From Pigoraptor vietnamica (Eukaryota; Opisthokonta; Filasterea): DNA of 47,514 nucleotides. The stretch lies in NCBI GenBank assembly GCA_943704525.1, contig CALSCQ010003231.1, positions 1-47,514 of the forward strand, in the 5' to 3' direction. A program made the position numbers and the translations under genes. This document shows positions 1-47,508 of this stretch, piece after piece (positions within the stretch are counted from its first letter, which is position 1; each line of letters begins with the position of its first letter). A model generated the notes under the pieces. It saw nothing but the letters and a program-made list of their open reading frames with translations. It searched no databases and was not told the origin of the DNA.

Positions 1-134
1 GGGGGGCGCCGAACAGCCCACATGCACGTGAGTGTAGTGGGGTGCGCGCACACACGTGTGATGTGGGCACATCTGTGTGTGCAAAGTGCGCATCTGTAGC
101 ACAGAAGAACGCGCGCGCAGACAGTGCAACTCAC

Positions 135-645
135 TTGGTACAGCGACTGGGGCGTCGCGGGCGCTGTCCATGCAATGGGCTTGAAAGACGTCCCCTTGTG
201 CGAGCCTGCGACAGCGGCAAAAAAGACCGTGTGGGCTGCGTGTGCGCGGGGAAGTCCTTGTGTGTGTAGAGACTTACCGTCACACCATGGCTGCGACTTG
301 GAGAGACCACACGCACACCAGAGGTATTTTTTACCGGGCTCAATGTTGCGGAGAGTGCATGGGCCATACTGCGTTTGAAACGGCCATGTCAGACTCGAGT
401 AACTGTTTGGGCGTTTCTTCGCCCACGTGTTCCGCCTGTGACGCACACGCCATGCAACACTGCGTGACGGATGCACAAGAACACGACAACAACGCATTCT
501 TACAGAGTATGCGAGTGCAGACACACATGGCAACATGAAAAGCTTCTCTCGTGTCGCATACTGAGCAACAACGCACCGTGGGCACGGCGGGCATTTTTGG
601 GGCGTCTGTCGGAGCAGAGCTACCTCCGTCTTCACTGGAGGCCAT
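135..645 (-). CDS. CDGSH iron-sulfur domain protein (mitoNEET/CISD-like), 3' end incomplete
   Basis: Exons 645-577, 368-278 and 205-135 join in frame (phases 0, 1, 0) through GTGCGT, GTAAGT and GTGAGT donors and CAG acceptors. The joined protein starts MASSEDGG and reads YGPCTLRNIEPGKKYLWCAC, then GLSKSQPWCDGSHKG. This is the CDGSH signature with its three Cys and one His, which bind a 2Fe-2S cluster. The family works in mitochondrial iron-sulfur and redox homeostasis. Exon 3 continues TSFKPIAWTAPATPQSLYQ. After the donor at 134 I cannot fix the next exon; an acceptor at 94 is possible. CISD3-like members carry a second CDGSH motif, which would lie outside the window. The ATG at 645-643 is the simplest start, but a more upstream in-frame start with a basic leader cannot be excluded. 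Function by family is solid; the start and 3' end are not. Confidence 0.75.
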
Positions 646-1021
646 CGTCACAATACGGTGAGAGCCAAGAACATACACAGTCTTGCCGCGACAAAGAAGC
701 AGAGCGGGCCCATTAATGACCGTGGTAAGGGTTCGCGAGAACGGCCGACGATGTTGCGCGTACATCCGTCCGTCAGCCTGGTGTCTGGACTCGGTAACGT
801 GCGCCTTCCCACACGGACGCCTCTTCGAACGCATGCAAGAGCCAAAATAGGCTCCATTTTGCAGGCATGATTAGCATTTCATTGCTTAAGTTGTTGCAAC
901 GCAGCGCTGCGCAAACGCACGGCAGCAGAAAAGCGCAAAAAAAAAGAAAAGAGAAGAAAGGAAGGAGATAGCGCGAGCGAAAGTGACAGAAGCGAAAACG
1001 TCAGCGCGGCGCACGCGGTCT
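646..1021. other. Intergenic: upstream of the CDGSH gene, downstream of the TTLL gene
   Basis: No credible coding sequence. The stretch should hold the promoter of the CDGSH gene and the 3' UTR of the TTLL gene, both on the minus strand. An A/G-rich run lies at about 938-965. No recognisable RNA gene or element. Confidence 0.5.
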
Positions 1022-3297
1022 TTACGCAGAACCGTCGCCCGGCACCTGCGCACCCTTATCGGCGGGCTTGTCCGTCACGCGCTCTTGTGCGCCAATCAGC
1101 CCCATCATAAGCGGGTGGTAGTAGTACGTCCCCTTCGTTCCCTCGGGGAGCTTCTGCGCAACGTGGCTGAGCAACGTCACGACGCTCACGCTGTTGCCCG
1201 TGAGGCGCGACGGGTAGATGCGAACGAAGCCGCCGACCTTCTCCAGCTCGCGGCGGGTGGTGAGGACCGTGTTGATCTCAGAATCGTCGATGCACTGCCA
1301 GTACTCCTTTCCCACCACGGACTCTTCAATGGTCGCGTCGCTCTCGCCCTCCGTGTCAAGCTCCGACTTCTTGAGGTTATCGAGCGTCTGGAGGGGAATC
1401 TCGCCGACGAGCGACCCCGAAGAGCCGTCGAAGAACACGTTCGACTGCAGCTCGTTCCACTCCTCGTCGTAGCGTGCGCGATTCCTGCCAAGGGAGAATT
1501 TTGCACAGAGTCAACAACTGAGGCGCGCGGGGGAGGATCGCAATGCACACACACACATGATGCTGACCACTCGACTGATGTACACACAACACACACACAC
1601 ACACACACACAATACACACACGCGCGCGCGCACTGAAAAGTGCGGGATAAAGTGACACGCACCACTGCTGCAGAGCGAAATCGACGTTGAATGGCTTGGC
1701 CTTCAGGCACTCCTTCTGCGACGAGCGGATGACGCCGAGGTCGTGGAGCTCGCGGAACACCTTGTGCGCAAGCTTCGAGCTGCGCCCGTAGTTCATCGCA
1801 ATGACATTCGTCATCATGCCGACCTTGGTCGCGTCGTACGACGAGCCCGTCTGGCCGGTGAGGTGCATGTCGGGGGAGCCGTTAAGCTGCGGGGACAGAG
1901 GGAGGGAGAGTCAGCGAGGGACAGTCGGTGAGACCCAGTCGCGGAAGATTGTCAGGTAATCACACAGAACGCACCGATCGCACACACCCGCACACCAACA
2001 CCCAAGCAATGAACTGCGATAAGCGATGCACGCTACGGCCACTCCGTCCAACAAACGGTTCGCAAGAAACTCATACCTCGATGACCTTCGGGCGCAGCAT
2101 CGAATCAAAGATGACGTCGACGCCCATCAACTGGTAGCACTGCGGGCACGTGTAGCTCTTGCCGAGCGTGCTAAAGTGGCGGCGGAAGGGCGGCTCGGCG
2201 CTGATAAAGACCTTGACGACGGCCTCGTAGATGCGACGGAAGATTTCTTCGGGATCCTCGCCGACGCGCACGAGGTGCTCCTTGAACTTGGCGTAGTTCC
2301 ACACGAGGTCGTTGACGTCCTTGTACTTCTTGTTGATGCTCGTGTTGGTCAAAAACTGCGTCGGGTCGCCGCCGGCCGTCGCGTTGTGGTCGTACTTGGA
2401 GCTCGCAAAGCGCACAAGGCCCTCGCGGTACATGTAGACGCGGAGAGGGGAGATGGACGTCACGAGGACGTACGTGCGCAGGTCAAACTTGTAGCCGTCG
2501 ATCAGGTAGGGGTCGTTCATGTAGGGCTGGACGATCATGAACGAGCCGTCCTTCTTGAGCTGCTCGAGGGGCTTGATGCCGTCGACGACGTAGATGCCCG
2601 TGCCCTGGCCGCGATCCGTCGGCTTGATGATCCATTTCATGTCCGTGTGGCCCTGCTGCATCTGCTTGTTCGCGTACTTTGCGAGCTGGTTGAACTGGTC
2701 GGGCATCGTGAAGCACGGGAACGTAAACGGCGCGAGCACGATCCCGGGGTACTTGCCCGCGAACCCGGCAAGCGCCGTGTTGATCGTGTTGCAGAACGCG
2801 TCCTTCGTCCACATGATCTGACGAAGGCCGTGCAGGCGCGAGATGCGCTGGAACGAGCTCAGCGACGGGTACCGCGAGCCCGGCACGCACTCCTCGTCAA
2901 GGTCGCCGATTCCCACGCACAGAATGCCCGAGACGGACGAGAGCGACCCGCCGCGCGTGATGCGCACGCCGTTGGCCTTTGTGGCGCGGTTGTACGTCTC
3001 CTGGTCGCGCTCCATCACGTAATTCATGCCCCGCATCAGCAGAAGGGGGCGCTTAATGCGCGACATGCTGTGCCGCCACTCGAGCTGCAGGAGCGTCTCG
3101 AGCGCCGGCGGGATCTTCTGCCCCTGCGCGATCATGGCGCTAATCTCGGGGCTCTCGTTTTGGTCCTGGACAATCGACGTGTCGCCGATGAGCACATCCG
3201 CCACGGCCCGCGTTCGCGTCTGCACGAACGCAAACTGGAGAGCGAGGGCGGCGAAGAGAATGAACACGAGCGTGCCCGCGAGGGCCTTCCCGAGCAT
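1022..3297 (-). CDS. Tubulin tyrosine ligase-like (TTLL) family enzyme with N-terminal membrane anchor
   Basis: Exons 3297-2077, 1886-1663 and 1484-1022 (phases 0, 2) give 635 residues. The TTL ATP-grasp core is clear: KWIIKPTDRGQGTGIYVVDG, then QPYMNDPYLIDGYKFDLRTY and VYMYREGLVRFASSKYD, then DVIFDSMLRPKVIELNGSPD spanning intron 1. These match the nucleotide- and substrate-binding blocks of TTLL enzymes, which add Tyr, Glu or Gly to tubulin tails or other proteins. The first ATG that fits puts a hydrophobic stretch (LAGTLVFILFAALALQFAFV, about residues 7-26) at the N-terminus, predicting a type II anchor or uncleaved signal. The open frame extends about 80 nt upstream without an ATG, so an extra 5' exon is possible. 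The amino acid added and the substrate cannot be told from sequence. Confidence 0.85.
1581..1632. repeat. (CA)n microsatellite in TTLL intron 2
   Basis: An interrupted CA run passes into a short CG run. It lies inside the intron 1485-1662, close to the donor side on the minus strand. Confidence 0.85.
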
Positions 3298-4307
3298 CTT
3301 CTCCGAGAGCGCCCAGTGGGCGACGTCCCTTGGTACGCGATAGGCGAGGAGATTGACGCGCGCGCCCGGCGCGAACAAGCACCAAAGGCGCGATGGTTCG
3401 ACGCCCTGTGAAAGACCTGATTGTCAAAACTCGCGCACAGAGCACATGGGGACATCCGCAACTACGCCACAAGCTGTGCAAGCACGCCCATCCATCTGAG
3501 ATTAGGAATCAGATTGCAGTGCGATTAGGTCAACTTACCTCACACAAAGACCTTCAAGCACGAGTAACTGGGGCACTAAATCCCACGCGACACACGCAAG
3601 TCCTTTCCCCGCGCTGAATGGCACCAGGGGACTTCCTATGAACGAATATGTCCAGGAGGTGTGACCTCAAGAATGTGTAAGACACAAGTCCTCCGCCTCC
3701 GTCGCACGTGTCTGATGATGCAGTCAATACGTCCTACTTGCGAACAATCGCTGCCGGAGTTGGGGAATGTGCGGTGGCGATAGGGGAGGCGGTAGGAGAT
3801 GGGGTGTGGTGGTGTGTGTGTGTGTGTGTGTGTGTGACACGTCCACACGCAGACACGAGGGCTGCATGCCATTATTGCGGTGTGGGAAATTTGGGACGGG
3901 CACAATCGGAAACAGGTACTTATTTGGAATTCCGATCTGTCATTCCATGCCAAATTCCACATTGAAAGGGGCGCGAAAAGTGTCATCAAGTTGACATTAC
4001 TCAATTCTCGCATGTGAAATTTTACGATGCGTTCTTTATATGGGCTGACTATGGCCATCGCAGTTTTCCGATACTAAAAGGCTTGCCACATGGTCTAAAT
4101 TTAATTGTGGGGAGGTAAGCCACAGCCTGTTTCTATTTGCGGATTGTCGGGATAATTTATCGAGGTTCCGCAACCGAGACCTCGCTTCGGTCACTGCAAT
4201 TGCCTACCGGTTGAAAGGCATACTGCACGAAGAACAAAGGCCAAGGATCATCTGCGAAAAAAATGTTTCGCAATATATTTCATAGAGACGACGGGTGGAG
4301 ACCCATC
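3298..4307. other. Intergenic, about 1 kb, between TTLL start and helicase 3' end
   Basis: No supported gene on either strand. It contains a short (GT)n at 3814-3836 and an AT-richer section at about 3870-4170. A small inverted repeat, CGAGGT...ACCTCG, lies near 4160-4184. It should include the TTLL promoter and, from 4307 upward, the 3' UTR of the helicase-knuckle gene. No tRNA cloverleaf was recognised. Confidence 0.45.
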
Positions 4308-7300
4308 TCAATACATTCGGTAACCAGCGTTTGCAGCGCCCGCTCCGTAACCGGCGTGCGCCCCACCGTACCCCGCCTGACCGGCAGCGCCGTAACCAGC
4401 CTGGGCCCCCGCACCGTACTGTGCCTGAGCACCGGCGCCATACGCAGCGCCGTACGCACCCGGGGCAGCGCCATAGCCCGCCTGCGCCGCGTTGTAGCTG
4501 ACCTGCGCTCCGTAGCCCTGTGCCCCGCCGTAGCCCGCTTGCGCGCCGCCGCCGTAGGCACCCTGCGCCGCGCCGCCATAACCGGCCTGTGCGCCGTAAG
4601 AAGACGCTCCCGCCGATCCGCCCTGCTTCTGGGGGCACTGCTGGATGAGGTGTCCGGGCACGTTGCAGATGCGGCACACGTAGCCGCGCGGAGGGCCCGT
4701 CGTCACGGCCGCAGTGCAGTCCTTGATGAAGTGGCCGGGGATGTTGCACTTCTTGCAGACGTAGCCCGGCGGGGGGACGCCGCCGGATTGGCCGCCCTGA
4801 GCGCCGTGCCCCTGTCCGTAGGCACCGGCACCAAACTGCGACTGCTGCGTCGTCCCATACTGACCCTGACCGCCGTACGTCGCCGACGCTCCAATCCCGC
4901 CGCCATAGTGTCCGTGCGCGCCGTTGCCGTACGTCTGCGTGCTCTGAGCGTACTGGTTCCACGACGACGCCGGCGCCTGCGCTGCCCCTGCGGCCCCGTA
5001 CGCGCCATAGCCCTGCTGACCCGCCACTGGCGCCGCACCAGCCGCGCCGTAACCGCCGAAGCCGGCCTGACCGGGCACACCGGCAGCGGGACGCGGGTTG
5101 CCCATCGGACAGTTCTGGATGAAGTGGCCGGGCACGTTGCACTTCTTGCAGAGATACCCCGGCGGAGGCACGCCAGTCTGGCGCGGCGCAAGAGGGCAAT
5201 CGCGGATAAAGTGGCCCGGCTGGTTGCAGCGGCGACACACGTAGTTGCCGAGGGGCACCTGAGGCATCCCCATTCCTGCAGGCTGACGCGCACCGAACGC
5301 GGCAGCGCCAAACATGCCGTAGCCTCCCATCATGCCAAAGCCAGGACGCGGCGCAGCGGCGCGGCCAGCAAGACCCGTCGACGCGCTCACGCGCGCCATC
5401 GTAGATCCCGTGCCCCCAACGGCGCAATCTTTGATGTAGTGGCCTGGCAAGTTGCACTTGCGGCAGATGTACCCCGCTGGCGGCGTCGACGCGTTCGACG
5501 ACGGGCAGTACTGGATCCAGTGGCCCTGGCGGTGGCACTTGTGGCACACGTAGTGCGCCGGCGGAACGGTGCGTTGATTGGGGACATTGAGCAGACCCGC
5601 AGAGCCAGCAGCCGTCGCCGTCGCAGCCGATCCCGTACCGGTCGTACGCGCTCCAGAGACAGAGGCCCGGCGCGGCTGAGAGCTGAGGTGGCGGTTGCGC
5701 GCCTTCGCATCCGTGAGACAGGCCGCCCAGAGGGGCGCAGAGGTGGCCTGCGACGAGCTGCAGATGATGTACAGAGCGCGCTTGGCCCGGCTAAGAGCGA
5801 TCGCGAAGTCGGCGGAGCTAAAAGGGAACGTCGTCGACGAACCGACAACGGAGAAGCTACGCAAACGAGGTCGGAAACAATGTGAACGACCTGTTACACG
5901 AAGGCAAGTCACACAATTCACGCGCTAGCACGCACACACACACATACACACAAAAATAACACGAAGACACACACGCTTTACGTGCAGTCAGCGCGCCAAA
6001 AATGCTCACATGACGACGTCCGCCTCGTGGCCGCGGAACTCGGCGACGGTGGCGACTGTAGGCATCTCCTGGGCACCCTGCTGCTGCGTCGCAAGCTCGG
6101 CCATGATGCGCGCCTTCTGAGCAGCGTAGGGCGTCAGAATCGCAAAAGACGCCGCGCGAAGTTCGCCGGCGTTGATCTCCAAGAACGACGAATACACCGA
6201 CACGCACTGGAGCGCCTCGTCCTCAGATTCCATCGCCGCCGTCGGGGCGGCCGCGCCCATGATCTCGTGCACCGTGTACGCCGAACACCCCTTCAGCGTG
6301 AAGGTCGCAGTCGCCTGCGGTCCGTCCGTGACCGTGTTGTTGTAAACCGTCGCGCGGAAAAAGTAGCCAGTCTCAGCGAGCATGCGATGCTGGATGGAGA
6401 GGTGCGCCACGGGATGTCCCCCCGCAACAAGGCGGCCAAAGAGCGTCGACGTCGCCGCCACCGCGCTGCCCGCGTTCACGCACGCCTGATCTGCGGCCCC
6501 GTCCGACAGTCTCGGGTTCTGCATGCCCGACAGCACAGCGCGCGTCGCAAAGCCCGCTGCAAGCAGGACGTCCGTCTCGCTGATGCGCCCTGCAGCGTCC
6601 ACAACCAGCGCCGCGCTCTCGCGGCCGGCGTACGCAGCGTCCTGCGCCGACGCAAAGACCACGTCGGCGACGAGAAGGAGAATCGTGCGAAGTCCGTCCG
6701 CATCGGCACTGAGGGCGCCACCAGCCCTATGGATGGCAGCACACTCTGCCAGCACAACAGCCTCGCACTCGAGATCGCGAAGGCGGCGAAGGTCGCTGCC
6801 GCTCTCCGCCAGGCGCGCGCGCTCTTCGGCGACGGCAGAAATGCGGGCCTCCAGCGCAGCGCTGTCCTGAGTGGCAGAGAGAATCGAATCCACGACCTCT
6901 TCGAGCGACATGGCGCGAACGGCAGCCTCGCTCGAGTTGGACGTGCCAATGCGCACGGTACGCGGCAAGCCAAAGCCCGCCCGCGCAAGGAGATCTCCCT
7001 CCGCAGGCGCGGCCGTGCGCCTCGCCTTCAGAAACGCCGAGAAGAGCGTGTCCAGCTCGCCGCTCGTGGGCGCAAGGGCAACAACTCGACGAGGGGCCGA
7101 GGCGATGCGCGCGGACACGTCCACGCGGTCGGCGTCAAAGTCGGGGACGGGCGCGTGTGCAGAGTAACTCACACGCCTCGCCAACTGCTCAGCCAGGGCG
7201 ACCGTGATCGACGCGAGGACCGACGTCTTGCCCGTGGCCGGTGGGCCCTGGAGCAGCAGAAATCCGTCCCTCAGCGCCAGAGACGACCGAATCGCCGCAG

Positions 7301-8240
7301 ACTGGTCCGCGTCCCACGTGAGTGGCGACGACGCAAGGAGATCTGCAGAGTCCTCCGGCAGCGCCGTGGCGTCGATGATCGTCGCGGCGGACGGGTTCAG
7401 CGACGCCCGCAGCAGCGGGACGTGACGTGCGTTCGCGAGGAGATCGGCCTTGGACGCCGACGCGGCGGCGTTCGATATCACGAGCGCGTGCCAGCGAGCT
7501 CCCGGGATCAGCTGCTGCGCCGAGCGACGCACCCTCTCGTCCTCGCCGCCCGACACCGTGCGGATGACGACAGAGGCGCCGTTCGTCTCCACCATTCCAA
7601 GAAGAAAGGCCGCGGGCGCAGCGGACGCAGACTTGACGGCCTCGGTCGCGAGGAGGAGGACGTCGTACGGACTGAAGGGAAGGTCCGTCGCGGGCGCCGG
7701 CTCTTCGCCAAGAGCAGGGGCAACTGGCGTGGCGACAAGCGTCACCGACGCAAAGGCCTCCATGTGCTCGACGGCATCAATGGTGACCGGGACCGACTGC
7801 GACTCGTCCAAAAAGGCAGACTGCAGGCCGCGGTGGGCATCGCGAATCACGACGGCGTCGAGCACGGCACCCTGCGCCGACAGATAGTTGTCGACATCGG
7901 GGTACGTGAGAGGCGGCGGGGAAGCAGCCGACTGCGACTCGAACGGGTTTGAGCACAGCAGCGCCTTGTAGTGAGACTCGAGGTCCCATCCGGCGCCATG
8001 GTCACTGCGAGCGACCTGCGGACAGAGAGAGTTTGAGAACATGCCGACACATAATGCGCACATGCGAGCAAAGTGACAACACCGTGAGCGTGATGGTGGG
8101 AACACGCCAAACACATAAGCGAAAGTGTGCAAGCAAAGTAACAGCGTGTTAAAAGAAAAGGACCACAACAATAAGCATACTTTGGACGGCGCATCACGGC
8201 CATCTTCATCTTCAAGCTTTCGCTTGGCCGCGGTCGCCAT
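4308..8240 (-). CDS. SF1 (AAA_11/AAA_12, Sen1/UPF1-class) helicase-like protein fused to six CCHC zinc knuckles
   Basis: Exons 8240-8181, 8015-6010 and 5856-4308 (phases 0, 2) give 1,204 residues. The join at 6010/5856 rebuilds motif V (RGHEADVVIFSVVGSS), so helicase and knuckles are one protein. Helicase blocks: Walker A GPPATGKTS (277-285), motif II VVDAAG (491-496), motif III RAVLSGMQNPR (512-522), motif IV IQHRM (561-565), motif V (about 675-697) and motif VI LSRAKRAL (710-717). Motif II lacks the usual DE pair and motif III lacks GDxxQL, so ATP hydrolysis is doubtful. Six knuckles of form YxCxxCNxPGHFIxxC follow at about 793-806, 820-833, 896-909, 925-938, 1056-1069 and 1083-1096. They resemble the RBBP6/Mpe1 knuckle. 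A Gly/Ala/Tyr/Gln-rich tail runs from about 1097 to 1204. An RNA-binding role is inferred from the architecture; the substrate is unknown. Confidence 0.85.
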
Positions 8241-8872
8241 AATGCTCGCAAAAAACGCACAGCTCGTGCGCGAACAGGAAACCAATTCAAAAGCCTTTTC
8301 CCGCCGAAAAATCCCAACAAAGGGAAGACGTCGAATGTAACAAAGGCCTTGGGCGAGACATTCGCGACGAGAATTCATAGAGAGAAGAGAGATAGAAAGA
8401 GAGAGAGAGAAGATAATGGAGGAAGAGAAATTGTTCGAAGTCAGCACGCATCCATGACGCGATCAGCACGGGAGACGTATTAACAAGCGACATGCACACA
8501 CACACACACACGCACACGTGCGCGCACAGTCTCACTCACAGACAGTGACACGCTCAACGAGGCCATTCAATCTGCCTCAAGCACACACCTAGTTGGCCCT
8601 CTTTGCTTGCGTGTAGAAGAGATGGGCGACGTCGTCTCAATTGGATCGCCTTTTTCACGTGGAGAAAAAGGATCACAGTTGTTGCTGAAACCCAAAAACA
8701 GGTGGTCGGGGTGCATCCTCCACACCCATCATGCTTCGAATCCGGGGTGTTATGGAATTGATAGGAGTAACGTTTTTGTGTCGTAACGTTTTTTGAAACC
8801 GAACGAAAGCCGAAGAGGCCCTTTGATGTTGACGGCGTGTGCACAACCCCTGACAAAACTAGTGGCACGCGA
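8241..8872. promoter_or_regulatory. Divergent intergenic region between helicase and coiled-coil genes
   Basis: This gap of about 630 bp separates two divergent starts, so it should carry both promoters. It contains a GA-rich run near 8388-8415 and a short (CA)n at 8492-8512. The part at 8640-8830 is AT-richer. No distinct core-promoter motif can be claimed. Confidence 0.5.
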
Positions 8873-33272: not shown

Positions 33273-36200
33273 TTACGCCGCAGACTCGTACACCCCCGCC
33301 TTCTTCATCTGCGAGCTCGCGACCCACAGGTTCTCGACGCCGGTGGTGGCAGGCGCAGGCACAGACTCCTTCTTGCCCTTCACCATCGACTGCGTCCGCA
33401 CAAACGCGTCGTGCGAGTCGGCGAGATCGAGCAGGGCGTCGATGGTCTGGTCCGGCCGCGCCCCGGTGGCACTGTAAATGCTCGACGGGCGCGTGCGGGT
33501 CTCGTCGCGCAGCAGGTTGTTCTCCCAGATGGCCTCCTGCGCCGCCTCCTTCTCCTTCGTCGGCGCCGCAGAGTAGCGCGAGGGCGCACTCTTCGAGGCG
33601 CCGCCCGCATTGGCGCGCCGGTGCTTCATGTACGCGACGGCACCGATCACAGCAGCAAGGCCCACGACGCCGCCCACGACGGCCGGAATGATGACCGAGG
33701 TGCTGGACGACGACGATGATGAACCACCGCCACTGTTGGTCTGCTGTTGGAACGAGAATTGACAAATGGAGCCGTAGTAGCCCGAGTTGCAATCGCACGC
33801 CGGACTTCCGTACGGCGCGTCATTGAGCAGCGTCTGGCTGCAGTTGCGCGAGTTGAGGCAAGGATCCGACGAGCAAGACGTCTGGCGGAACGTCTGGACC
33901 GTCAACGTGGCGTTCAGTGTCTGCTGGAGACCGGTCGAGTCGCGGCACGTGAAGCGAATCTCGGAAGTGTGCCCCACGATGTTCTCGATCGACGCCGTCG
34001 TGTACACCTTGTTGTTGGTCACGTTGAAGAGGCCGCCAGAGTAGTCGTGTTCGAACGTGCACGTGACAGAGTCGCCGGCATCCTCGTCAATGCCGACGAC
34101 TGCGCCGACAAACGACCCGGCAGCGGCTTCGCGGCGCACGGTACCTGGGTCGAGGCGCACGCCGGAAGGAGGCTCGGGTACGTCTGCGATGGCGATACGC
34201 AAGGTGATGACGTCAGAGTTGGACACAGCAAGTTTTCCACACAAGGGGCAAAAAACGGCCACGACGTCTCACCTCGCACGTAGATTGTAAACGGCTGCTT
34301 GACGACGAGGCCGCCGCGGTCCGTGCTCTGGACGACGACAGTGAACGACGGCGTGATCTCAAAGTCAAGGGGCTTGAGCGCGACCAGGTTGTCGGCGATG
34401 ATGCCGAGACAGCCCGACGGGTCCGAAACGATCGAGAACGTAAAATTTTCGTTCAGGTCGGGGTCGTTCAGGACGGTCATGTTGCCGATAACGCCGACCG
34501 TGTTCTCCACGATCGTGTTGTTCGCAAGCGCAATGCCGTTGCCAGCCTCGGGAAGGTCTGCACGCGAGGGATGCATTAGCGCACCAGTGCGTGCGCAGAA
34601 GGTGCCAAAGTAAAGGGGAAAAAACTGAACACCCACCGTTGACCCTGATCACAAAGTTGCGCATAAACGTAAATCCGGCGCGGTCCGTGGTCGATATCGA
34701 AATGGCCACCTGCGGCGTCGACTCGTAATCGATCGCCGACTTGACGAGGAGCCGGTTCGCCTTGATCTCAAACAGGTCGCCAGAGGCAAACAGCGTGTAT
34801 GTGAACACATCTCCAAAGTCCTGGTCCACCGTCGCCAGCGTACCGACGAGCGTGCCAACGGGCGCATTCTCGTTGACTCCCGTCGCCGAGAGCGTCAGGT
34901 TCGTGGGCGCCTCGTTGACATCCATCACCGTGATGACAAAGTCCCGCGTGACGTTCGAGCCGCCGTGGTCGATCGAGACAACGGTAATCTTGTACGACGA
35001 CATCGTCTCAAAATCAAGCGGGCGCGACGTGAGCAGCGACGTGCCGTTCGTGTAGAAGGCGTCGGTCGGGTTGGTCGGGAGAATGTACGTGAATGTATCG
35101 CCAACGTCCTCGTCGACCGTTGTGAGCACGCCGACAATTGTTCCGTTGGGCGCGTTCTCGTAGATCGAGTTGCTGCTGAGCGTCAGCCCGGTCGAGGGGT
35201 CGTTCACATCTGGAGCGAAGGGGTCGGGTTAGATGTGGGAGGAGTGAGTAACAATTAACGAAGTCTCGGCACTATACCCACCGTTGACGGTGATGAAGAA
35301 CGAGGTCGTGATGGTGAGGCCGCCCTTGTCCGTGCATGCGACCGAAATCGAAATGACGCGCTGCTTCTCGTAGTTGAGCACGGCGACCGCGTGGAGAATA
35401 GTCCCGTTCGTGATCGCAAAGGCGTTGCCGGGATTGCTCACGAGCGAAAACTTCCACGTCTCGTTTCGGTCAGGGTCGCCGACAGCGCCTAGCATGCCAA
35501 TCATGGCATTGGCAGCGTTGTTTTCGTCAATCTGCGAGTTCGAGAGGCTCACGTTCGTGGGCGCCTCGTTGAGGTCTGCACGAAGAGGAAGGGGGCATGT
35601 GAATTACAGACCGGGACACCGACATTATGGCTCTGTAGCCATAGAGGAAACGTTCAGAATACAGCTGAGAACTCACCGCCAACTGCAATCACATAGTCGC
35701 CCGTGACGGACGCGCCCGTCTGGTCGGTCGCCTTGACCGACACAGCGTACGACGATTTCGCTTCGTAATCGAACGACTTGGTTGTCTTGAGCGTCGTGCC
35801 CGCAAGCACAAAGGCGTTCGCCTCGTTCGTCGTGATCACCAGCGTGAACTTGCTCATGTCCGTGTCGCCGCCAAGCGCCTTGAGGACGCCCACACCCGTG
35901 CCGGCGGGGAGGTTCTCCGCAATGTCGGTATTCGATAGAACGAGGGACGTCGCAGGCTCGACGACGTCTGCGACAGCACTCGGTGTTAGAATAAAAGATG
36001 CAAGAGAGGCCCACAGGGCCAAGACAATAGCAGTCAACACATTGGCGCCAATGCGATTTACGCACTGTCGATCGTGATGTTGAATGAGCTCGTGTACGAA
36101 AGGTTCCCCTTGTCGATAGTGACAATCGAAATCAAGAGGCGCTCCGTGACCTCGTAGTCAAGCGAGCGCGCGGTGAGGAGCCGGTTGCCCGATATGTAGA

Positions 36201-39200
36201 AGGCCTTCGTCGGGTCCGACACAAGCTGGTACGTGAACGACTCGTTTGCATCCACGTCGGTCGACGTCATTGTCGCCACGAGCGTGTCGCGAGGAAGGTT
36301 CTCAGTCACGTTGCTGTTGCTCAGTGCCATCGCTGTCGGCGCCTCGTTCACGTCTGCAAGCATCGTGCGGTACAGGGTGAGCCGCAGTGCACATACACGT
36401 GAGGAAAATACGAACACGCCACGCACAGCGTTTCCGCACTCGCCGCCACATTACTTACCGGTGACCTTGATCGTGAGGGTGGCGACCACCGAAAGGCCGG
36501 CCTTGTCCGTTGCGCGCACGTCGAGCGTGTAATCCGACCGCGTCTCATAATCAAACGGCAGGCGCACCTGCAGTTTGTCGCCGGACATGATGAAAGCATT
36601 CGCGGGGTCGGCCACCAGCGTGTACGTGAACGTGTCGCCCGAGTCCTGGTCAATCGCCCGGAGGTCTCCAATTGGGTACCCGCTGACCGTGTTCTCCGGC
36701 ACTGTCGACGTCGTCACGCGGACGCCCGTCGGCGCCTCGTTGATGTCGCGCACCATGATGGTGAGCTGCTGCGTCGCGTTCTGACCGAGGCGATCCGTCA
36801 CACGCACATTCACCGTGACCGTCGGCGACTCCTCAAAGTCGAACGGGCGCGCCGTGAGGAGGCTCGTGCCAGACACGGTAAAGTTGGCCGGGCCGCTGCC
36901 AGCGACGATCGAGAACGTCCACGAGTCGCCGTCGTCGGGATCGCCAAACTGCTGCAAGGTGCCAATGACCGTGCCGCTCGGGGCGTTCTCAAACACAGTG
37001 TTGTTGCTGATCGTGCAGCCCGTCGGCGGCTCGTTCACGTCCTCAATGGTGATGGTGAAGTTCTTGCGGAACGAGAGGCCGTACTGGTCCGACGTCACGA
37101 TGGTCAGCTGCACAGAGTGGGGTCCCGTCTCGTAGTCGAGGCCGCGAGCGACGACAAGGCGACCCTGCGACGTCGCAAAGAGGCTCTGCGGGTTCACAAC
37201 GAGCGAGTACAGGAACGAGTTGCCGGCGTCAGGGTCCTTGGAAGTCAGCGTGCCGACGACCGTGCCGACGGGGCTGTTCTCCGCAATGCTCGTCTTGGAG
37301 AGGGTGATGTCCGTCGGGGGCTCGTTGACGTCGAAAATCGGAATGTCAAAGTCGCGCGTGATCGTGTTGTTGCCCCTGTCGGTCGAGTTGACGGAGATTC
37401 GAATCAACGGCGTTGCCTCGTAATCAAACACGGTGTTCGTGAAGATGAACGCGTCCTTCGTCGTGAAGACGACCGGGCCCGTCATCCCAAGGGAGTACGA
37501 GAACGACTCGTAGTTGTCCGGATCGTCCGTCGTCAGACCCGCGACCAGCGACTTGACGGGCATGCCCTCCGGAATGCCGACAAGGCCGTCGATGCCACGA
37601 AGGCCGACGTCCAGCGGGGACTCGTTCACGTCAATCACAGAGATCACAAAGCGGCGGGAGATCGTGAGTCCGCCGTGGTCCGTCCCGCGGATCTCGATCG
37701 TGTACTGCGACAGGCCCTCATAGTCGATCGACGTGCCCACGCACAACTGCGAACCGTCAATGTAGAAGGACACGTCCGGGTCATACGTGAGGTCGTAGTC
37801 GTAGTGCTCGCCAATGTCCGGGTCCCCGAGGGTTGACAGATTGCCCAGCACGTAACCGTACGGCACGTTCTCCAACACCGACGTCGACGTCAGCTCGAGC
37901 GACGTGGCGGGCTCGTTGACGTCCACCACGTGGATAACAAGCAGCTGCTGGACGCTGAGGCCGCCGTTGTCCGTCGCCGTGACCGTGACGTTGTAAGACC
38001 GCCGAGTTTCATAATCGAACGAGCGCGCCGTCTGGAGGACGAGACCGATGAGCGTGATGTCGCCGGCGGGCTGTACGGCAATCTGGTACTGGAAGCCGTC
38101 TGTTTGCTCGGGGTCACCGACCGCCTGGATGCGGCCAATAAGCGTGCCCACGGGCTTGTTCTCCTCCACGTCGAGCACGCCGTCCTGCAGCGCAATGCCC
38201 GTCGGAGGTTCGTTGATGTTCGTGACGAAGACGTCAAAGTCGCGCGAGACGCCGAGCCCGCCCTGGTCCTCGCAGGTGATCGTCAGCGTGTACTTCCACT
38301 GCGCCTCGTAGTCCAGCGGTACGCTGTTCCGCAGGTGGTTGCTGACAATCTTAAAGGGCGCGTTTTGAGGCGCGGCAATACGGCACGTGGCCGTCGCACC
38401 GGCATCGGGGTCGCCCTCCGCGGTGAGGTCACCAATCTGCGTGTCGGCAGCGAGGTTCTCCTGGATGCTGTTGGCCGAGAGGCGAATGTTCGTGGGCGGC
38501 TCGTTGACGTCTTTCACGGTAATCGTGAACGCGACGGCCTTCGAGAGACCGCCGACGTCCGTGCACGTGATCTGGAGCGAGTACGAGTTCACCGTTTCAA
38601 AGTCGAGGATGAGCGTCGACACAAGCCGGTTGGCGCCGTCCAGGCGGAAAGCGGATGTGCCCGTCATCACGCACGCAGGGACGTCGTTCGCGTCAGGGTC
38701 CGTCACCGTGAGGTTGCCCACAGCGCTGCCGATCGGGAGGTTCTCGTTCATGGACGTCGACGAGAGCACCACTGCGGTCGGTGCCTCGTTCACGTCCAGC
38801 ACGCCGATCGTGATGTTGCGCGAGAACGAGAGGCCACCGTTGTCCGTCACCTTCACCGTCACCTGCAGCGTGCGCGTCGCCTCAAAGTCCAAAGAGGCCT
38901 TGGCGACGAGCTGCGTCCCAGTCAAACCAAAGCGGCCGCCAGCATTGTCGGTAATCGCAAACGTGAACGTCGAACCCGCGTCGGGATCGGAAGCGCTGAG
39001 GACCCCGATGACGGCATTGATGGCGTTGTTCTCCGCAATCGTGTCCTTGGTAATCGCAATGGCCGTCGGGGGCTCGTTGACGTCTGCAAATGGCAAACAG
39101 GGGGTGAGTTGCTGACAGCGACCGCGCACGCCAAGAGCAGCCTCTTGCGGGCATCACAGCAGCGCTGGCGACATGCACGCACCCTTCACGGTGATGGTGA

Positions 39201-42200
39201 ACGACTTCGTGACGCTCAAGCCGCCAGAGTCCGTTGCCGCGAGGACAATCGAATGGCTAGAGACCGTCTCAAAATCGAGGGCCTTGGCCGTGCGCAGCTT
39301 TCCGCCGTCGATCGAGAAGAACGAAGCCGAAGCACCGCCAGTGATCGAAAACTCGATGACGTCACGGGCATCGACGTCCTGCGCGGTGATGAGGGCGACG
39401 ACGGATCCACGCGGCGCATCCTCGGCAATCTCGGTTGCGTTGATCGCGAGGTTGAACGGCGCCTCGTTCACATCTACGACGCAAGAGGTGAATTAGAAGG
39501 GGCGCATGTCGCCAATGGGGCAATTATAAACTTTCAACCTCAAAATCTTACTGAGCAGAAAAAAAGCGATTTGAGAAGCACAAGACCATATGAAGAGAAC
39601 ATGTCCACGCGACCCACCGAGGACGCTGATGACAAAGTTCTTGTTGAAAGAGAGACCGCCCTGATCAGTCACTCGGAGCGAGAGGGTGTAGCTGGGTGCC
39701 GCCTCGAAATCAAGCGCCTTGATCGTCACAAGGGACGCGCCCTCAATGGAGAAGGCCCCGTTGGTCGGGTCGCTGGTGATCGAGTACGTGAAGACGGGAG
39801 CGGTGTCGGGATCCGTTGCAGACAGCGTCCCGACGGTGAACTTGGTGTCGGTGTTCTCGGCCACGGTCGATGCCGAAAGAGACAGCGACGTGGGTGCCTC
39901 GTTCACGTCTACGGTGAAGCACGTGTTAGAAGTTACGACAACATGACTACACACACAACACTCTGTCCAGACGGAACAATGAAAGATAAGTGCCACAACA
40001 AAGCTGGACGCACCCTGCACGCGGAGGGTGAAGTCGCGCGACACCGATAGCTGCCCGTTATCCATCGACATGACCGTCACGACGTACGTCGAACGGCGCT
40101 CAAAGTCAAGCGCGGCGTTCGTCACAATCGCGCCGTTCTGGATTGCAAACGCGTTCTCGGGGTTGGCCGTAAGCGAGTACGTGAACGTCGAGTGCGCGTC
40201 GGGATCCTGCGTTGCAAGCGTGCCAAGCGACGTGCCCACAACCATGTTCTCGTTGACCGTCGTGCCGCTCAGAGTGATGTCAGTGGGCGCTTCGTTGACA
40301 TCTGCGAGGGGCCGTAACAAAGTATAAATATAAGCAAGTGCAATAGGCCAAACACACAACGCACAAGAGACCTACCGTTAACGGTGATAACAAAGTTCGA
40401 GGTGATGAACTGGGACGCCGTGTCCGTTGCGCGCACGTCAACGCTGTACGACGACTTTGTCTCAAAATCGAGCGCCGACTTGGTCATCAGCCTGCCGTTC
40501 TTAATCTCAAACATGTTGCTGGGGTCCGTCAGCGACAGCGTGATCGTATCGCCGGCGTCCGGGTCGACGACGCCCAGCGTTCCAACGACGCCGACAAAGT
40601 TCTCGTTGACGGCCGTCGCCGAGATGTTGAGAAGGACAGGTGGCTCGTTCACGTCTGCGCCAGACACACAGTTATGCTTGGACAACTGGTTGTAATGCAT
40701 GACTTCGTGAACAGCCCATTCCATTTTGACAAGACAGACAAACGGATGACGACACATACCGAGGACGGAGACGGAGAAGATCCGCGTCACAAAGAGACCG
40801 CCCTTGTCGGTCGACTTGATCGAGACAGTGTAGTCGTGCTTCGTCTCGAAGTCAAACGCAACAGCCGAGCGCAGCTCGTTCCCGTTCGCAATCGCAAAGG
40901 AGGGGTTCGAACCGTCGATCGTGTACGCGAAGACTTCGTTGGCGTCGGGATCGCCCGTCGTGGCGAAGCGGCCGATGAGTGTGCCGGTGGGCTTGTTCTC
41001 CTGAATCGTCGACGCGTCGAGAGTGATGCCCTGGGGCTCCTCGTTCACATCTGGAAGCAGAATGGAGGCCGCAACGTGAGGAAAACACGTTCGCAGTGAC
41101 ACCAAGCGCGTCCCTGCACACAGCCCTACACACCCGTGACGGCGATGGTGAAACCCTTGCTGAACGTCAGCCCCAGCTGGTCGGCCGTCTGGATCGTCAC
41201 AGCGTAGCTCGAGCGCGTCTCAAAGTCCAGCGGCTTGGTCGTGCGCAGTGCATTGTCCACGATCGCAAACGAGTTGCTCGCGTCCGTCAGCGTGTACGTG
41301 AACGTGTTGCCGACATCGGGATCCGTCGTCGTGAGAGAGCCGACGATCGAGTTCGCCGCGAGGTTCTCGGCAATCGTGAGGCCAGAGAGGCTCAGACCCG
41401 TCGGGGCCTCGTTGACGTCTGGATAGTTAGAAGCGCATCGAGGAGAGTCAGCAACACGAAACATGCGAATAAATACGACTCGGCACAAGCCACATCAGAC
41501 ACCGACCAGTGACAGAGACGGTGAACGTGCGCTCGACCGTCCCACTGCGCTTGCTTTCTGTTCCGACGATCGTTACGCTGTACGACGACTGCGCCTCGTA
41601 GTCGAGGAACTTGGCCGTCGTGAGCTTGTTGCCCTGGATGGCGAAGGCATTCGATGGGTTCGTCTTGATCGTGTACGACATGGTCGAGTCCGGCGCAAAG
41701 TTGCCCTGGCTGGATAGCGTGCCAACGGTCGTCCCCACGGCGAGGTTCTCGGCGATCGTGTTGCCAGTCAGTGTCATGCCCGTCGGCGTCTGGTCCACCG
41801 CTGCGAAGCAGAAGAAATGAACAGTGTCAAGTTGTGAATGGGTAGCCTTAAGGGGATAACACAACAGAATTTGCTGAGTCTCCTCAATTGCTGGCACATA
41901 CCGTTGACAGTAACCGTGATGGTCGTCTGGAACGTGTTCGCTGCCTTATCCTGCACGCGAATGACGACGGCATAGCTCGTAGCCACGCGCGTATCGAGGA
42001 GGATCGCCGTCACGAGGTTGTTGCCGTTGAGCGAAAACGCGTTCGAAGGGTTCGTCACAATCGTGTACGCGAACGTCTCCTGCGCATCCTCGTCCGTCGC
42101 CGACAGTGCGCCGACACCGGTGCCGATGGCGCTCGTCTCGGAGATCTGGTTGCCGGTGATCGTGATTGCCGTCGGCACCTCGTTCACATCTGCGTTCGCG

Positions 42201-45200
42201 CATCGGCACGTGCGTTAGAAACCGCATCACTGCGCGCACACATGACAAGCGACTTTTCTCCATACCAATGACGGTGATGTCAAAGTTGACCGTGGCCGAC
42301 AGCTGGCCCTTGTCCGTCACCGTAACGCCAATCCGGTATGTGGACGTTGCCTCGAAGTTCAGGGCCTTGACGGCGACCAGGTTGGACCCAACGACGCCGA
42401 ACGTCGTGCCGGGGTTTGTGCTCACGGTAAACGTGAACGTCTCGCCGGCATCGGGGTCGCCGACCTGCGTGAGCGCTCCAATGACGGCGTTGACAGCGTT
42501 GTTCTCCGCGATCGTCGACTTGGACAGCGTGATGCCTGTGGGCGCCTCATTCACATCTGCGTTGGAGCGCATGCACACGTGAGATACAGTGCACTGACCC
42601 GCACAACAGAGACCAACAGAAGAGCCTAGGCCCACCTGTGATGGTGATCGTGTACGTATGATCGGCAGTGAGCCCGCCCTTGTCCGTCGCACGCAACGTC
42701 AGCGAATACGTCGAACGCGCCTCAAAATCAAGCGGCTTGAGTGAGCGGAGAGAAGATCCCGAAATCTCAAACTCAGTCGAGCCTCCCACAATAGAGTACG
42801 TCGACGCGTCCCCAGCGTCCGGGTCGCCAATAGCCGCAAGCGTGCCGACCACAGTGGCTGCGGCGGCGTTCTCGGCGATGGTCGTCGCAGAGAGCGAGAC
42901 GTCCGTGGGTGCCTCGTTCACGTCTGTGCGTGCGCAACAATTAGAACGTGACAACAATACACTCGCATAACCCAGTTCTTCGCAGCATACTATGCGCGCA
43001 CTCACTGGCAACCGTGATCGTGAATGTCTGGGAGAAGAACAGGCTGCCTTGGTCGGTCGTGCGAATCGTCACCGAGTACGAGTTCTTCGCCTCAAAGTTG
43101 AATGACACGCTCGTCTTGAGGGTGTTGCCAGCGATCGAGAACGCGTTCGCCGTGTCCGTATCGATCGTGTATGTGAATGTGTTGGCGCTGTCCGGATCCG
43201 TCGTCGTCAGCGTCCCGACCGTTGTCCCAACCACAAGGTTTTCGTTCACCGTCATCGCCGAAAGCGAAATCGCCGTCGGCGCCTCGTTGACGTCCGTCAC
43301 GGAGATAACAAAGTCCTTGTCGAATGTGCCTCCAAACTTGTTCTCCTTCACAGTAATCGTCGCCGTGTACGTCTTCTGCGTCTCGTAGTCCAGCGACTTG
43401 GCCGTCATCAGCTGGTTGCCCGAAATCGCAAACGCACTGCTCGGGTTGACCTTGAGCGTGTACGTGAACGTAGAGTCCGGAGGGAAATTTCCAACGGCGC
43501 CGAGCGTCCCAATGGCCGTCGACACGGCAGAGTTCTCCGCCACCGAAGATCCCGTCAGCGTGATGCCCGTCGGCGTCTTGTCCACAACTGCGTTTACGGT
43601 AACAGGTTCGATTACGTTCGGATCCCTCCCAGCAAACACAACCGACATCGTTCTATCACATCTGCACGGTCATACTCACACTGCACGGTGATCGTCGCCG
43701 ACCGCACGAACGTAAGCCCGCCCTTGTCGGTGCCCGTCACCGCAATGTCGTACGAAGACTTGGCCGCAAAGTTCAGAATCACCGCCGTGTTCAGGGCGTT
43801 GTTGTTCGCAATCGCGAAAGCGTTCCCCGGGTTCGTCGTCAGCGTCAGCGTCACGGCGTCATTCGCGTCGACGTCGGTCCACGCAAGCGTACCAACGCGC
43901 GTTCCGATGGGCGCAATCTCAGAGACCGTCTGGCCGGTGAGCGTCACGCTCGTCGGCGCCTCGTTCACGTCTGGGAAGCATTATGGCACAGGTGAGTGGC
44001 ATGTGAGACTCAAACAGGCTTGTTGTGGTGTGGCGTATTTCATCAAAGGCACTAAACACACAACTCGCAAGTAACCCACCGTTGACAGTGATGACAAAGT
44101 CTGCCGCAACCGAGAGGCCACCCTTGTCGGTCGTCGAGATGCGCACCGTGTACGTCTTCTGAGTCTCAAAGTCTAGCGCAGAGACGGTCGCGAGGTTGCC
44201 GTTGCTGATTCCAAAGGCGCTCGAGGGGTTCGTGACCAGGGCGTACGTGAACGTCTCCCCCGCATCCGGGTCGCCGGTGGTGGAGAGCGCCCCGATGGTA
44301 CCCACAACATTCTCGTTGATGGCTAGAGCCGAAAGTGCGAGGCCAGTGGGCGCCTCGTTAACATCTGCGACAGCAGTTCGTTACGGTGAGGCAAAGGCAT
44401 AAAACAATGTGCATTTCTGTCAGCAAACGGAGCTTTAACAGTACCGGTCACGGTGATCGTCAGCGTCTTGGAGATCGTGTTTCCACCCTTGTCCGTCACC
44501 CGCACGTCGACAGCGTAGCTCGATCGTGTCTCGAAGTCGAAGACGGCCGCCGTCTTGAGTGTAGAGCCACTGATGGCAAAGCCGGTCGTCGACGTGGCGA
44601 AGGTGAACGTCTCGGATGCGTCGGGATCGCCTGTTGCCGACAGCGTGCCAATGGTAGTGCCGCTCACCGCATTCTCAGCGACCGTGCTGGCACTGAGAGA
44701 GATGCCCGTCGGCGGCTCGTTTACGTCTGCAGCAAGAAAGAGAAAAAAAGAAAAGAACGCAGATGAGAAAACGGATCGCACGACAAATTCCATTACATTT
44801 TGCGAAAACAACGGGTTTGAAGCTCGAAGCTGGTAAGCAAGAGTCGGCACCTACCAAGCACAGTGACAGTGAACGCCTGCTGCGCGCTGAGTCCGTCCTG
44901 GTCGGTGACCTTAATCGTGATCGAGAACGAGTTGGCAGTCTCAAAGTCGAAAGGAGCGGTCGCGCGGAGAGCGTTTCCGGAGATCGAGAAGCGGCCGCTA
45001 GCATCGTTGACAAGCGTGAACGTGAGCGTCTGCGCTGCGTCGGGGTCGATGCCAGTGATCGTGCCGACGGTGGAACCGGCGGGGCTGTTCTCGTTGATCG
45101 ACAGCGACGACACAGTCACTCCAGTCGGCGCCTCGTTGACGTCTACACGCAAACACATAAGGCGCTATTAAAAAAGGAAAAAAGGAGGGTTTTGAAGTCG

Positions 45201-47508
45201 ACGGCAAACGCGAAGCACACCCACCGATGATGTTGATGGTGAAGGCCTTGTCCACGGACCCGCCGTACTTCGTGTTCGTGCTGCGAATCGTGAGCGAATA
45301 CGAATTCTTCGTCTCAAAATCGAACGTCTTCTTCGACTGCAGCTGCGCGCCACTGATCTGGAAGGCAGAGTCGGCGTCGATGGTAATGAGGTACGAGAAC
45401 GTGGAGTCGGGCTGGAAATTGCCAAGCGTGTTGAGGTTGCCGATAAGAGTGCCGGCCGCGAGGTTCTCGCGGATGGTTGTCGCGTCGAGGACGACACCCG
45501 TCGGCGTCTTGTCGACAAACTGCACGTTGATGGTGAAGGGGACATCGAGCGTAAGCCCCGCCTTGTCCGTCGCTGTGACGACGATGTTGTACGAGCTCGT
45601 CGTGGCATAGTCGAGCAACGTATTTGTCACAAGCGCGCCGTTGGAGATGGCGAATGTGTTGCCGGGGTTGGTCTTCAGCGTCAGCGTCACCGCGTCGCCG
45701 ACATCGGGGTCCACCGACGAGAGCGACCCAACGACCGTGTTCACAGGCGAAGTTTCCGAGACCGAGTTCTTCGACAGTTGCACCGATGTCGGCGGCTCGT
45801 TCACGTCTGTCGGCATGAGACAGAGCTGCGTTAGCGGAGGGAGACTACACGAGACACGTCGACGCGGCCACAAGGGATCGCCAACTTACCAATCACGTTG
45901 ATCGTGAACGCCTGGGACACAAAGAGCCCGCCCTTGTCCGTGCTCACGACGGTGATCGCGTACGACGTCTGCGCCTCAAAGTTAATTGCCGCGTTCGTGA
46001 CAAGGTTCGACCCAGAAATCGCAAAAGTGTTGCCGGGGTTGCTGCTGAGCGTGTACGTGGCCGTATCGCCGGCGTCGGGGTCGCCTCCTGTAGTGAGTGC
46101 GCCAACAACTGTGCCCGTCGCCACATTCTCTTGGACGGTCGACTTCGACAGCGCAATCGATGTCGGAGGTTCGTTCACATCTTTTGAGACAAATAACATA
46201 GGTTAGGCAAACGCATAATAAGAATTACATATACAGCATATAGCTTGGGACCTACCGAGGACACTGATTGTGAACGTGTGCGTCGCCGTGAGGCCACCCT
46301 TGTCGGTCGTCACGATCGAAACAGAGTAGCTCGACGTGGCCTCGAAGTTGAAGACGGCGTTCGTGCGCAGGACATCGCGGTCGATCGTGAACAGAGCCGT
46401 GGCAACACCGAACGTGTACGTGGCCGTGTCGGTTGTGTCGGGGTCGCCCACAGTTGTAAGCTTGCCCACGGACGTTCCGATGGCCGAGTTCTCAGGCACC
46501 GTGAGCTTGTCAAGAGCGACGTCGGTGGGCGCCTCGTTCACGTCGTTGACCGTGACGGTGAACGTCTGGGAAAAGAACAGGTTGCCTTGGTCCGTCGTGC
46601 GGATCGTCACCGAGTACGAGTTCTTCGCCTCAAAATTGAACGCAACTTTCGTCTTGAGGGTGCTGCCAGTGATCGAGAACGCGTTCGCCGTGTCCGTATC
46701 AATCGTGTACGTGAACGTGTTTGCGCTGTCCGGATCCGTAGATGTCAGCGTCCCGACCGTCGTGCCAACTGCGAGATTTTCGTTCACCGTTGACGCCGAA
46801 AGCGAAATCGCCGTCGGCGCCTCGTTGACGTCCGTCACGGAGATAACAAAGTCCTTGTCGAATGTGCCTCCAAACTTGTTCTCCTTCACGGTAATCGTCG
46901 CCGTGTACGTCTTCTGCGTCTCGTAGTCCAGCGACTTGGCCGTCACTAGCTGGTTGCCCGAAATCGCAAACGCACTGCTCGGGTTGACCTTGAGCGTGTA
47001 CGTGAACGTAGAGTCCGGAGGGAAATTTCCAACGGCGCCGAGCGTCCCAATGGCCGTCGACACGGCAGAGTTCTCCGCCACCGAAGATCCCGTCAGCGTG
47101 ATGCCCGTCGGCGTCTTGTCCACAACTGCGTTTACGGTAACAGGTTCGATTACGTTCGAATCCCTCCCAGCAAACACAACCGACATCGTTCTATCACATC
47201 TGCGCGGTCATACTCACACTGCACGGTGATCGTCGCCGACCGCACGAACGTAAGCCCGCCCTTGTCGGTGCCCGTCACCGCAATGTCGTACGAAGACTTG
47301 GCCGCAAAGTTCAGAATCACCGCCGTGTTCAGGGCATTGTTGTTCGCAATCGCAAAAGCGTTCCCCGGGTTCGTCGTCAGTGTCAGCGTCACGGCGTCAT
47401 TCGCGTCGACGTCGGTCCACGCAAGCGTACCAACGCGCGTTCCGATGGGCGCAATCTCAGAGACCGTCTGGCCGGTGAGCGTCACGCTCGTCGGCGCCTC
47501 GTTCACGT
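33273..47508 (-). CDS. Giant cadherin-repeat, EGF, single-pass membrane protein (3' portion; 5' end outside window)
   Basis: 26 exons, 5'-3': 47508-47218, 47125-46256, 46180-45890, 45806-45225, 45142-44855, 44726-44445, 44364-44080, 43970-43680, 43587-43006, 42923-42636, 42556-42266, 42189-41902, 41800-41507, 41418-41134, 41050-40760, 40654-40376, 40301-40014, 39908-39618, 39473-39183, 39083-36459, 36353-36066, 35967-35677, 35575-35282, 35209-34637, 34557-34273 and 34183-33273. All introns are phase 1. At least 3,970 residues carry about 39 cadherin-like domains of about 97 residues, with the cadherin blocks AEN (PEN), DPDxxxxFTY (DxD), LDFE/LDYE (LDRE), TDKGG and DVNEAPT (DxNDN). The C-terminus has an EGF-like module (CSSDPCLNSRNCS ... 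CDCNSGYYGSIC), a Ser linker, a TM (VIIPAVVGGVVGLAAVIGAV), KHRR and a cytoplasmic tail of about 110 residues. I see no beta-catenin or p120 motif. A role in adhesion or prey capture is inferred. Confidence 0.9.
36459..39083 (-). repeat. Single exon encoding nine consecutive cadherin-like domains
   Basis: A 2,625-nt exon (875 codons) with nine linkers of the type D/N-x-NE-x-P and no intron. Most other exons of this gene carry one domain each. The linker codons at the internal junctions sit where introns fall elsewhere in the gene. Confidence 0.9.
40376..47508 (-). repeat. Five-domain cadherin super-repeat, four units
   Basis: Reading 5'-3', 20 consecutive domains fall into four units: 47508-45890, 45806-44080, 43970-42266 and 42189-40376. 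Position 1 has SExSP/SETSA-type starts and no Glu in the LDRE slot (LNFAAKS, LDYATTS, LDTRVAT). Position 2 starts VDKTPTG or VDQTPTG and has PDST instead of DPD. Position 3 has TDQ instead of TDKGG. Position 4 has an extra Gly before DPD. Position 5 is a standard repeat. Domains after unit 4 do not continue the pattern clearly. Confidence 0.8.
43006..43973 (-). repeat. Copy A of a recent ~970-bp duplication inside the cadherin gene
   Basis: Pairs with 46544-47511 at an offset of exactly 3,538 bp. The 291-nt exon 43970-43680 differs from its partner by 3 silent changes, and the 92-bp intron by 2 bases. Similarity falls off toward 43006. Confidence 0.9.

Follow-up and report, generated by a model that had tools for sequence, protein, structure and literature searches.

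A cadherin gene at the end of the contig

The window, a stretch of 47,514 nucleotides from Pigoraptor vietnamica, carries on its minus strand the 3′ part of one transmembrane cadherin gene, which runs from 47508 through 40376 and onward to a stop codon just after 33276. Its 26 exons are separated by 25 introns (72–144 bases, 25/25 GT–AG) and splice into 3,971 codons in one frame without a stop, with one base assumed to complete the first codon. The product contains 39 EC domains (d01–d39), and these tandem, above-cut-off matches to PF00028 place it in the cadherin superfamily. Domains d01–d20 make up four units of five domains each; we refer to linkers by the domains that they join.

47218..47508, minus strand: unit 1 domain 1 (d01), with LNFA replacing LDFE; the window edge lies within the upstream intron
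46833..47125, minus strand: unit 1 domain 2 (d02), with FVDKTP linker, GNFPPDST and KENKFGG
45890..46832, minus strand: unit 1 domains 3–5 (d03–d05), linkers complete, with intron 46255–46181 within
45520..45806, minus strand: unit 2 domain 1 (d06), with LDYA; shares an exon with d07
45225..45519, minus strand: unit 2 domain 2 (d07), with FVDKTP, GNFQPDST and TNTKYGG
44080..45142, minus strand: unit 2 domains 3–5 (d08–d10), introns included
43680..43970, minus strand: unit 3 domain 1 (d11), identical in protein to d01
43295..43587, minus strand: unit 3 domain 2 (d12), differing from d02 at one residue
42266..43294, minus strand: unit 3 domains 3–5 (d13–d15), introns included
41902..42189, minus strand: unit 4 domain 1 (d16), with LDTR
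41507..41800, minus strand: unit 4 domain 2 (d17), with AVDQTP, GNFAPDST and TESKRSG
40376..41418, minus strand: unit 4 domains 3–5 (d18–d20), introns included
33900..40301 (3′ limit approximate), minus strand: membrane-proximal domains d21–d39, with partial ligand losses at d33/34, d37/38 and d38/39
33771..33875, minus strand: EGF-like stretch after the EC domains (weak Pfam match, E 0.087, below the cut-off)
33624..33695 (approximate), minus strand: probable transmembrane helix, a hydrophobic stretch placed by eye
33276..33623, minus strand: cytoplasmic tail of about 116 residues

The canonical linker of this cadherin reads DVNEAPT, one residue shorter than the animal consensus DxNDNxP. A Pfam search of the tail returned no domain above the cut-off. 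The same kind of search found no laminin-G match in the last exon (d39 to stop), which separates the protein from Fat, in which a laminin-G domain sits between the EC domains and the membrane. The cadherin cytoplasmic (catenin-binding) domain is absent among the five Pfam families listed at E up to 10, so the protein does not class as a classical cadherin.

Elsewhere in the window, a scan for RNA genes gave no tRNA and no Rfam match at the gathering score. Two neighbouring reading frames on the minus strand, 4311–5921 and 6009–8447, have matches to zinc knuckles and to AAA_11/AAA_12.

Four linkers have lost the same seven calcium ligands

We scored nine ligand positions, named as in the cadherin literature, for 52 linkers, of which 38 lie in the window and 14 on a second contig, C874, described below. 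These are the xEx Glu, DFE Asp and DFE Glu of the lower domain; the first, third and fourth residues of the linker; and, in the upper domain, the DxD pair and the top Asp. The accepted residues are lenient and were fixed after the alignment had been seen, with Asp or Asn allowed at the first linker residue and DFE Asp, and Asp or Glu at the linker Glu and second DxD residue. The cadherin calcium motifs (xEx, DxE, linker, DxD and top Asp) are complete at 45 of the 52 linkers. Three linkers lack one or two ligands (two at d33/34, one each at d37/38 and d38/39), and the remaining four lack an identical seven.

These four, referred to here as the hinge linkers, are d1/2, d6/7, d11/12 and d16/17, the junctions between domains 1 and 2 of the units. 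The original prediction held that the ligand groups of this junction are missing together in all four units and that the other linkers of the units keep theirs. Both statements agree with the scoring: at each hinge linker, domain 1 lacks the LDRE-type Glu, the linker itself lacks its three scored residues, and domain 2, the upper domain, lacks the DxD pair and the top Asp. All 15 remaining linkers inside d1–d20 are complete. Losses of more than two ligands, which could have been scattered along the alignment, are confined to these four sites among the 52 scored. They hold 28 of the 32 missing cells in the 468-cell table (Fisher p 1e-33, in which the cells are not independent). Of the 3,876 ways to place four linkers among 19, 4 have an exact spacing of five, although the copies are not independent.

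The substitutions at the hinge linkers are specific. Only the xEx Glu of domain 1, present in all four, and the DFE Asp or Asn are kept. The LDRE Glu had been predicted to be lost as LNFA (d01), LDYA (d06) and LDTR (d16), and the linker to be replaced by FVDKTP (d02 and d07) or AVDQTP (d17); the alignment bears this out and adds that the linker Glu is changed to Lys or Gln and the linker Asn to Asp. The DPD pair is also gone as predicted, but PDST does not take its place: the aligned residues are N-F-[P/Q/A], and the Asp of PDST falls two columns later. The column of the top Asp holds Glu or Asn and adjoins a one-residue insertion. Splicing error is ruled out as a source of the losses, given that the d06–d07 pair of unit 2 lies within one exon.

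Charge is lost along with the ligands. Summed over the nine sites it is −2 to −3 at the hinge linkers, whereas the other 48 average −7.6 and range from −8 to −6; over the wider interface it is 0 to −2 compared with −5 to −10 elsewhere. Judged by these residues, canonical calcium binding at d1/2, d6/7, d11/12 and d16/17 is very unlikely.

The period stops at d20. Domains d21–d39 have no ligand loss of the hinge kind and no period of five, and among lags 1–8 in this region none stands out, with the lowest value matched by 195 of 1,000 shuffles.

A second contig probably carries the 5′ part of the gene

Searches of the genome contigs scored the best candidates only (50 for PF00028 and 52 for a domain-2 query). 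Because a different family yielded 362 candidates, the figure of 50 probably does not reflect an upper limit. Matches to cadherin number 47 of the 50 and 51 of the 52, and all lie on C1328 or C874. As no cadherin match appeared on any other contig among these best candidates, this is probably the sole cadherin gene of its genome.

C874 encodes a start codon, an N terminus that looks signal-like by eye, a cysteine-rich stretch and then 15 EC domains, and it ends inside a probable intron that closes in a run of T. The window opens with what appear to be the last bases of an intron, ttgcag. Because one contig runs off in an intron and the other begins with an intron end, the two probably belong to one gene with at least 54 EC domains, and further units could lie between them. 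The period does not continue on C874, the probable 5′ part, where we found neither such ligand loss nor a period of five.

C874 has features of its own. From c04 to c15 (about 59–3610, minus strand) the first residue of the linker is N or D in strict alternation. Identity at lag 2 is raised as well (61 of 5,000 shuffles match it), which gives the tip arm another period, of two domains. The cysteine-rich stretch (4852–5517, minus strand) has significant EGF-type matches to Notch and Delta-like 1 entries and no Pfam match; by eye it resembles the DSL domain of Delta, in an alignment that is not significant.

Other searches of the genome placed 30 of the 77 EGF_2 matches listed on contig C583 and integrin beta matches on four contigs (C661, C928, C829 and C373, the last below the cut-off). 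The Cdc14 of this genome is closer to CDC14A (491 bits) than to entries named CDC14 (246 bits), which we take to be human and yeast entries, respectively. The integrin beta and Cdc14 matches are consistent with a unicellular holozoan and point no further; a pattern for 18S primers had no match. A scan of viral contigs gave 37 pattern matches and no relative.

The period shows signs of block duplication

Identity between domains five apart is 50.4% in d1–20, compared with 40–43% at lags 1–4 and 6–9. This value was matched by 41 of 5,000 shuffles, and by none of 5,000 when d01–d03, near-copies of d11–d13, were omitted. On a tree of all 54 EC domains (39 from the window and 15 from C874; bootstrap not settled), the five position labels cluster with 7 changes, and none of 200 shuffles was equally low. 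The domain 2s form one clade on this tree (support 100/99, with the bootstrap not settled), and positions 1, 3, 4 and 5 are each split (2, 2, 4 and 3 changes). A one-residue insertion before DxD follows the unit position as well: every unit has it at positions 2 and 4 and lacks it at 1 and 3, and three of the four units have it at 5. Equally good agreement arose in 52 of 20,000 permutations, and in 626 of 20,000 for units 2–4 alone.

Two further results, like the split positions, depart from this pattern. Position 4 has no excess identity (46.3% within the position, 48.8% with position 3), and in a tree without the hinge columns (d39 omitted; 60 columns, which is too few) the domain 2s are ungrouped and the domain 1s group weakly (support 57).

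The signs that duplication is the source of the period are strong even so. Lag-5 identity, tree labels and insertion pattern lead us to read a single loss of ligands rather than concerted losses: most likely, to judge by the domain sequences, a five-domain block was duplicated in tandem, and ligands lost once were inherited four times. The original prediction of calcium-free linkers at a period of five is well supported by the seven missing ligands and the loss of charge, and its ‘concerted loss’ is better described as one loss followed by block duplication.

The four units are present as predicted but do not amount to four independent versions. Over the hinge pair unit 1 is almost a copy of unit 3, which leaves three distinct versions. 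Between these two units, dS is 0.039 for d01 and 0.027 for d02, and the intron between these domains differs at 2 of 92 positions. For d03, dS is 0.36 and dN 0.065, that is, under coding constraint, and protein identity is 48% for d04 and 59% for d05. Similarity between the two units therefore switches near the d02/d03 border. The tract 47508–46833 / 43970–43295, which comprises domains 1 and 2 with their intron, is conversion-like: gene conversion appears to have acted on the hinge pair. Units 1 and 3 also share identical runs of up to 211 bases. Because unit 1 lies where the contig ends and closely repeats the hinge pair of unit 3, its placement could be an assembly fault; the three distinct hinge versions stay even if unit 1 is misassembled.

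Conserved replacements suggest a maintained joint

The motifs that replace the ligands in domain 2, VD[K/Q]TPTG and GNFxPDST, are themselves conserved. Across the three distinct units, 15 of the 25 hinge-facing columns of domain 2 are identical, compared with 20 of 73 elsewhere (Fisher p 0.004). The same measure at canonical positions 3, 4 and 5 gives 14/23, 14/24 and 13/23, so the new motif appears to be as constrained as a canonical interface. The base of domain 1 behaves differently: 3 of 14 columns are identical, compared with 27 of 82 in the remainder, and positions 2–5 have 4 to 6 of 14. This lack of excess conservation weakens the case for a maintained joint. Taken together, the conserved residues of domain 2 and the lost acidic charge argue for a maintained joint, not decay.

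With a little more belief than doubt, we read the protein as a giant cadherin stalk with four calcium-independent joints, one every five domains, which arose by block duplication and are maintained to bend or fold the stalk. Most EC–EC linkers, with their full ligand set, would be stiff. In the central zone, a five-domain block with one calcium-free linker would have been duplicated to four copies, with stiff segments on either side. The segment facing the membrane would have 19 domains, and the one facing the tip 15 if C874 is the 5′ part. We regard the joints as maintained interfaces because they have a conserved sequence of their own and little of the acidic cluster remains; they are predicted to hold no calcium, to bend, and to let the stalk bend or fold with or without it. 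By analogy with known calcium-free linkers, such as those at which Fat/Dachsous and protocadherin-15 kink, a stiff stalk could in this way fold or yield at regular steps independently of calcium, which might help so long an adhesin to fold compactly or to be compliant.

The main rival to a bending joint is one that is calcium-free and nevertheless rigid, in which the new residues fix the pair, perhaps straight, through packing and salt bridges, so that a fall in calcium leaves the shape of the stalk unchanged. The proposed contacts involve the Lys of VDK, the Asp of VD, the Phe of F-V-D and of GNF, and the Lys of ENK/NTK/ESK. Such contacts would account for replacement residues that are conserved in three diverged units and for the largely neutralized acidic cluster, and the bent interface of DN-cadherin EC2–3 is described as made of uncharged residues (PMC5120219). 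However, unit 4 has Gln in place of Lys and Ala in place of Phe, so that the contacts are not constant, and calcium-free linkers are described in the available literature as bending or flexing. We consider a rigid joint unlikely.

A re-shaped metal site is more improbable still. Three acids remain near each joint in all four units (the xEx Glu, the VD Asp and the PDST Asp) and might coordinate a single calcium ion, or some other cation, in an altered geometry, but seven canonical ligands are lost, Lys or Gln stands at the position of the linker Glu and the nine-site charge is only −2 to −3.

We give an equally slim chance to neutral decay, in which the ligands of a single linker disappeared, duplication spread this defect and selection has no part in the joints: the supported duplication would give the period without selection, and the domain-1 base agrees with this. 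Against it, the domain-2 motif persisted although identity between the hinge domains of distinct units has fallen to about 41–59%, and each of the three distinct versions retains all seven losses.

The bending joint may have a more specific form, which we put forward tentatively as the less likely side of an open bet: a stalk like a folding ruler, with four calcium-insensitive joints spaced exactly by block duplication between rods stiffened by calcium, a shared and selected motif and gene conversion of the hinge pair that keeps the joints alike, distinct from the irregular kinks of animal cadherins. If this were true, a mechanical device would have evolved in a single-celled relative of animals.

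Bacterial arrays show a shallower periodic loss

A collection of prokaryote genomes scanned with the hinge pairs gave 176 stretches, 116 of them relatives; the best 80 of the 116 correspond to 78 loci. The scan patterns were canonical stretches, and hinge-like linkers were not selected for. From 528 domain matches, 513 were usable by length and provided 368 linkers between close neighbours, which were scored slightly more laxly (Asn also allowed at the second DxD residue). Like the present cadherin, these bacteria have long arrays and the short DVNEAPT linker.

Among the 368 linkers from the best 80 of 116 relatives, 274 are complete and three lack five or six ligands. A seven-ligand loss occurs in none of the 368; the maximum is six, in one linker with a doubtful alignment. 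In Rhodopirellula arrays of two species (L064 and L035), the DFE Glu is lost at 7 of 14 linkers, nearly every second one with one slip, and the linker Glu is lost together with it in 7/7 and 6/7 cases, respectively. Periodic linker weakening is not unique to this gene, and its depth here is unmatched in that bacterial sample.

Comparison with calcium-free linkers of known cadherins

With seven of nine ligand motifs lost, the four hinge linkers fall with those of cadherins that have calcium-free linkers. In the available text of the sources cited here, PCDH15 EC9–10 has a defined interface and a bend of about 90 degrees (PMC5120219), simulations show more flexibility for LI-cadherin EC2–3 than for canonical linkers (PMC8427231) and DN-cadherin has bendable sites under AFM (PMC8325961). 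As in the present protein, each of PCDH15 EC9–10, DN-cadherin EC2–3 and LI-cadherin EC2–3 is a linker without calcium motifs amid canonical ones, according to the same sources (PMC5120219, PMC8325961, PMC8427231). PCDH15 EC9–10 is described as losing xEx too, whereas xEx is kept in the joints described here.

Fat and Dachsous are likewise very long, with a kink where repeats lack calcium motifs that may aid packing; regular kink spacing is not mentioned in the accessible part of that source (PMC11497213), and the last exon of the present gene differs in lacking a laminin-G match. The calcium-free linkers of animals are stated to share no common motif (PMC5120219), whereas the four linkers here share one, at a spacing of exactly five. 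We found no cadherin with calcium-free linkers at a strict period in the portion of the open-licence literature available to us. Calcium-free linkers as such are already known; their regular series appears to be new.

Calcium-free linkers are thought to give long cadherins their bends and elasticity, but the rule behind them is hard to test because the ones described have no motif in common. Four copies of one joint, together with 15 complete linkers in the same 20 domains, provide built-in controls, so that sequence, structure and mechanics of the joints could be compared within one protein. Among unicellular holozoans, Capsaspora owczarzaki is likened to the present case by description: it bears integrins and, in the available text, has a single cadherin (PMC12993075, PMC13245172). 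The Pigoraptor gene suggests that jointed cadherin stalks also exist outside animals.
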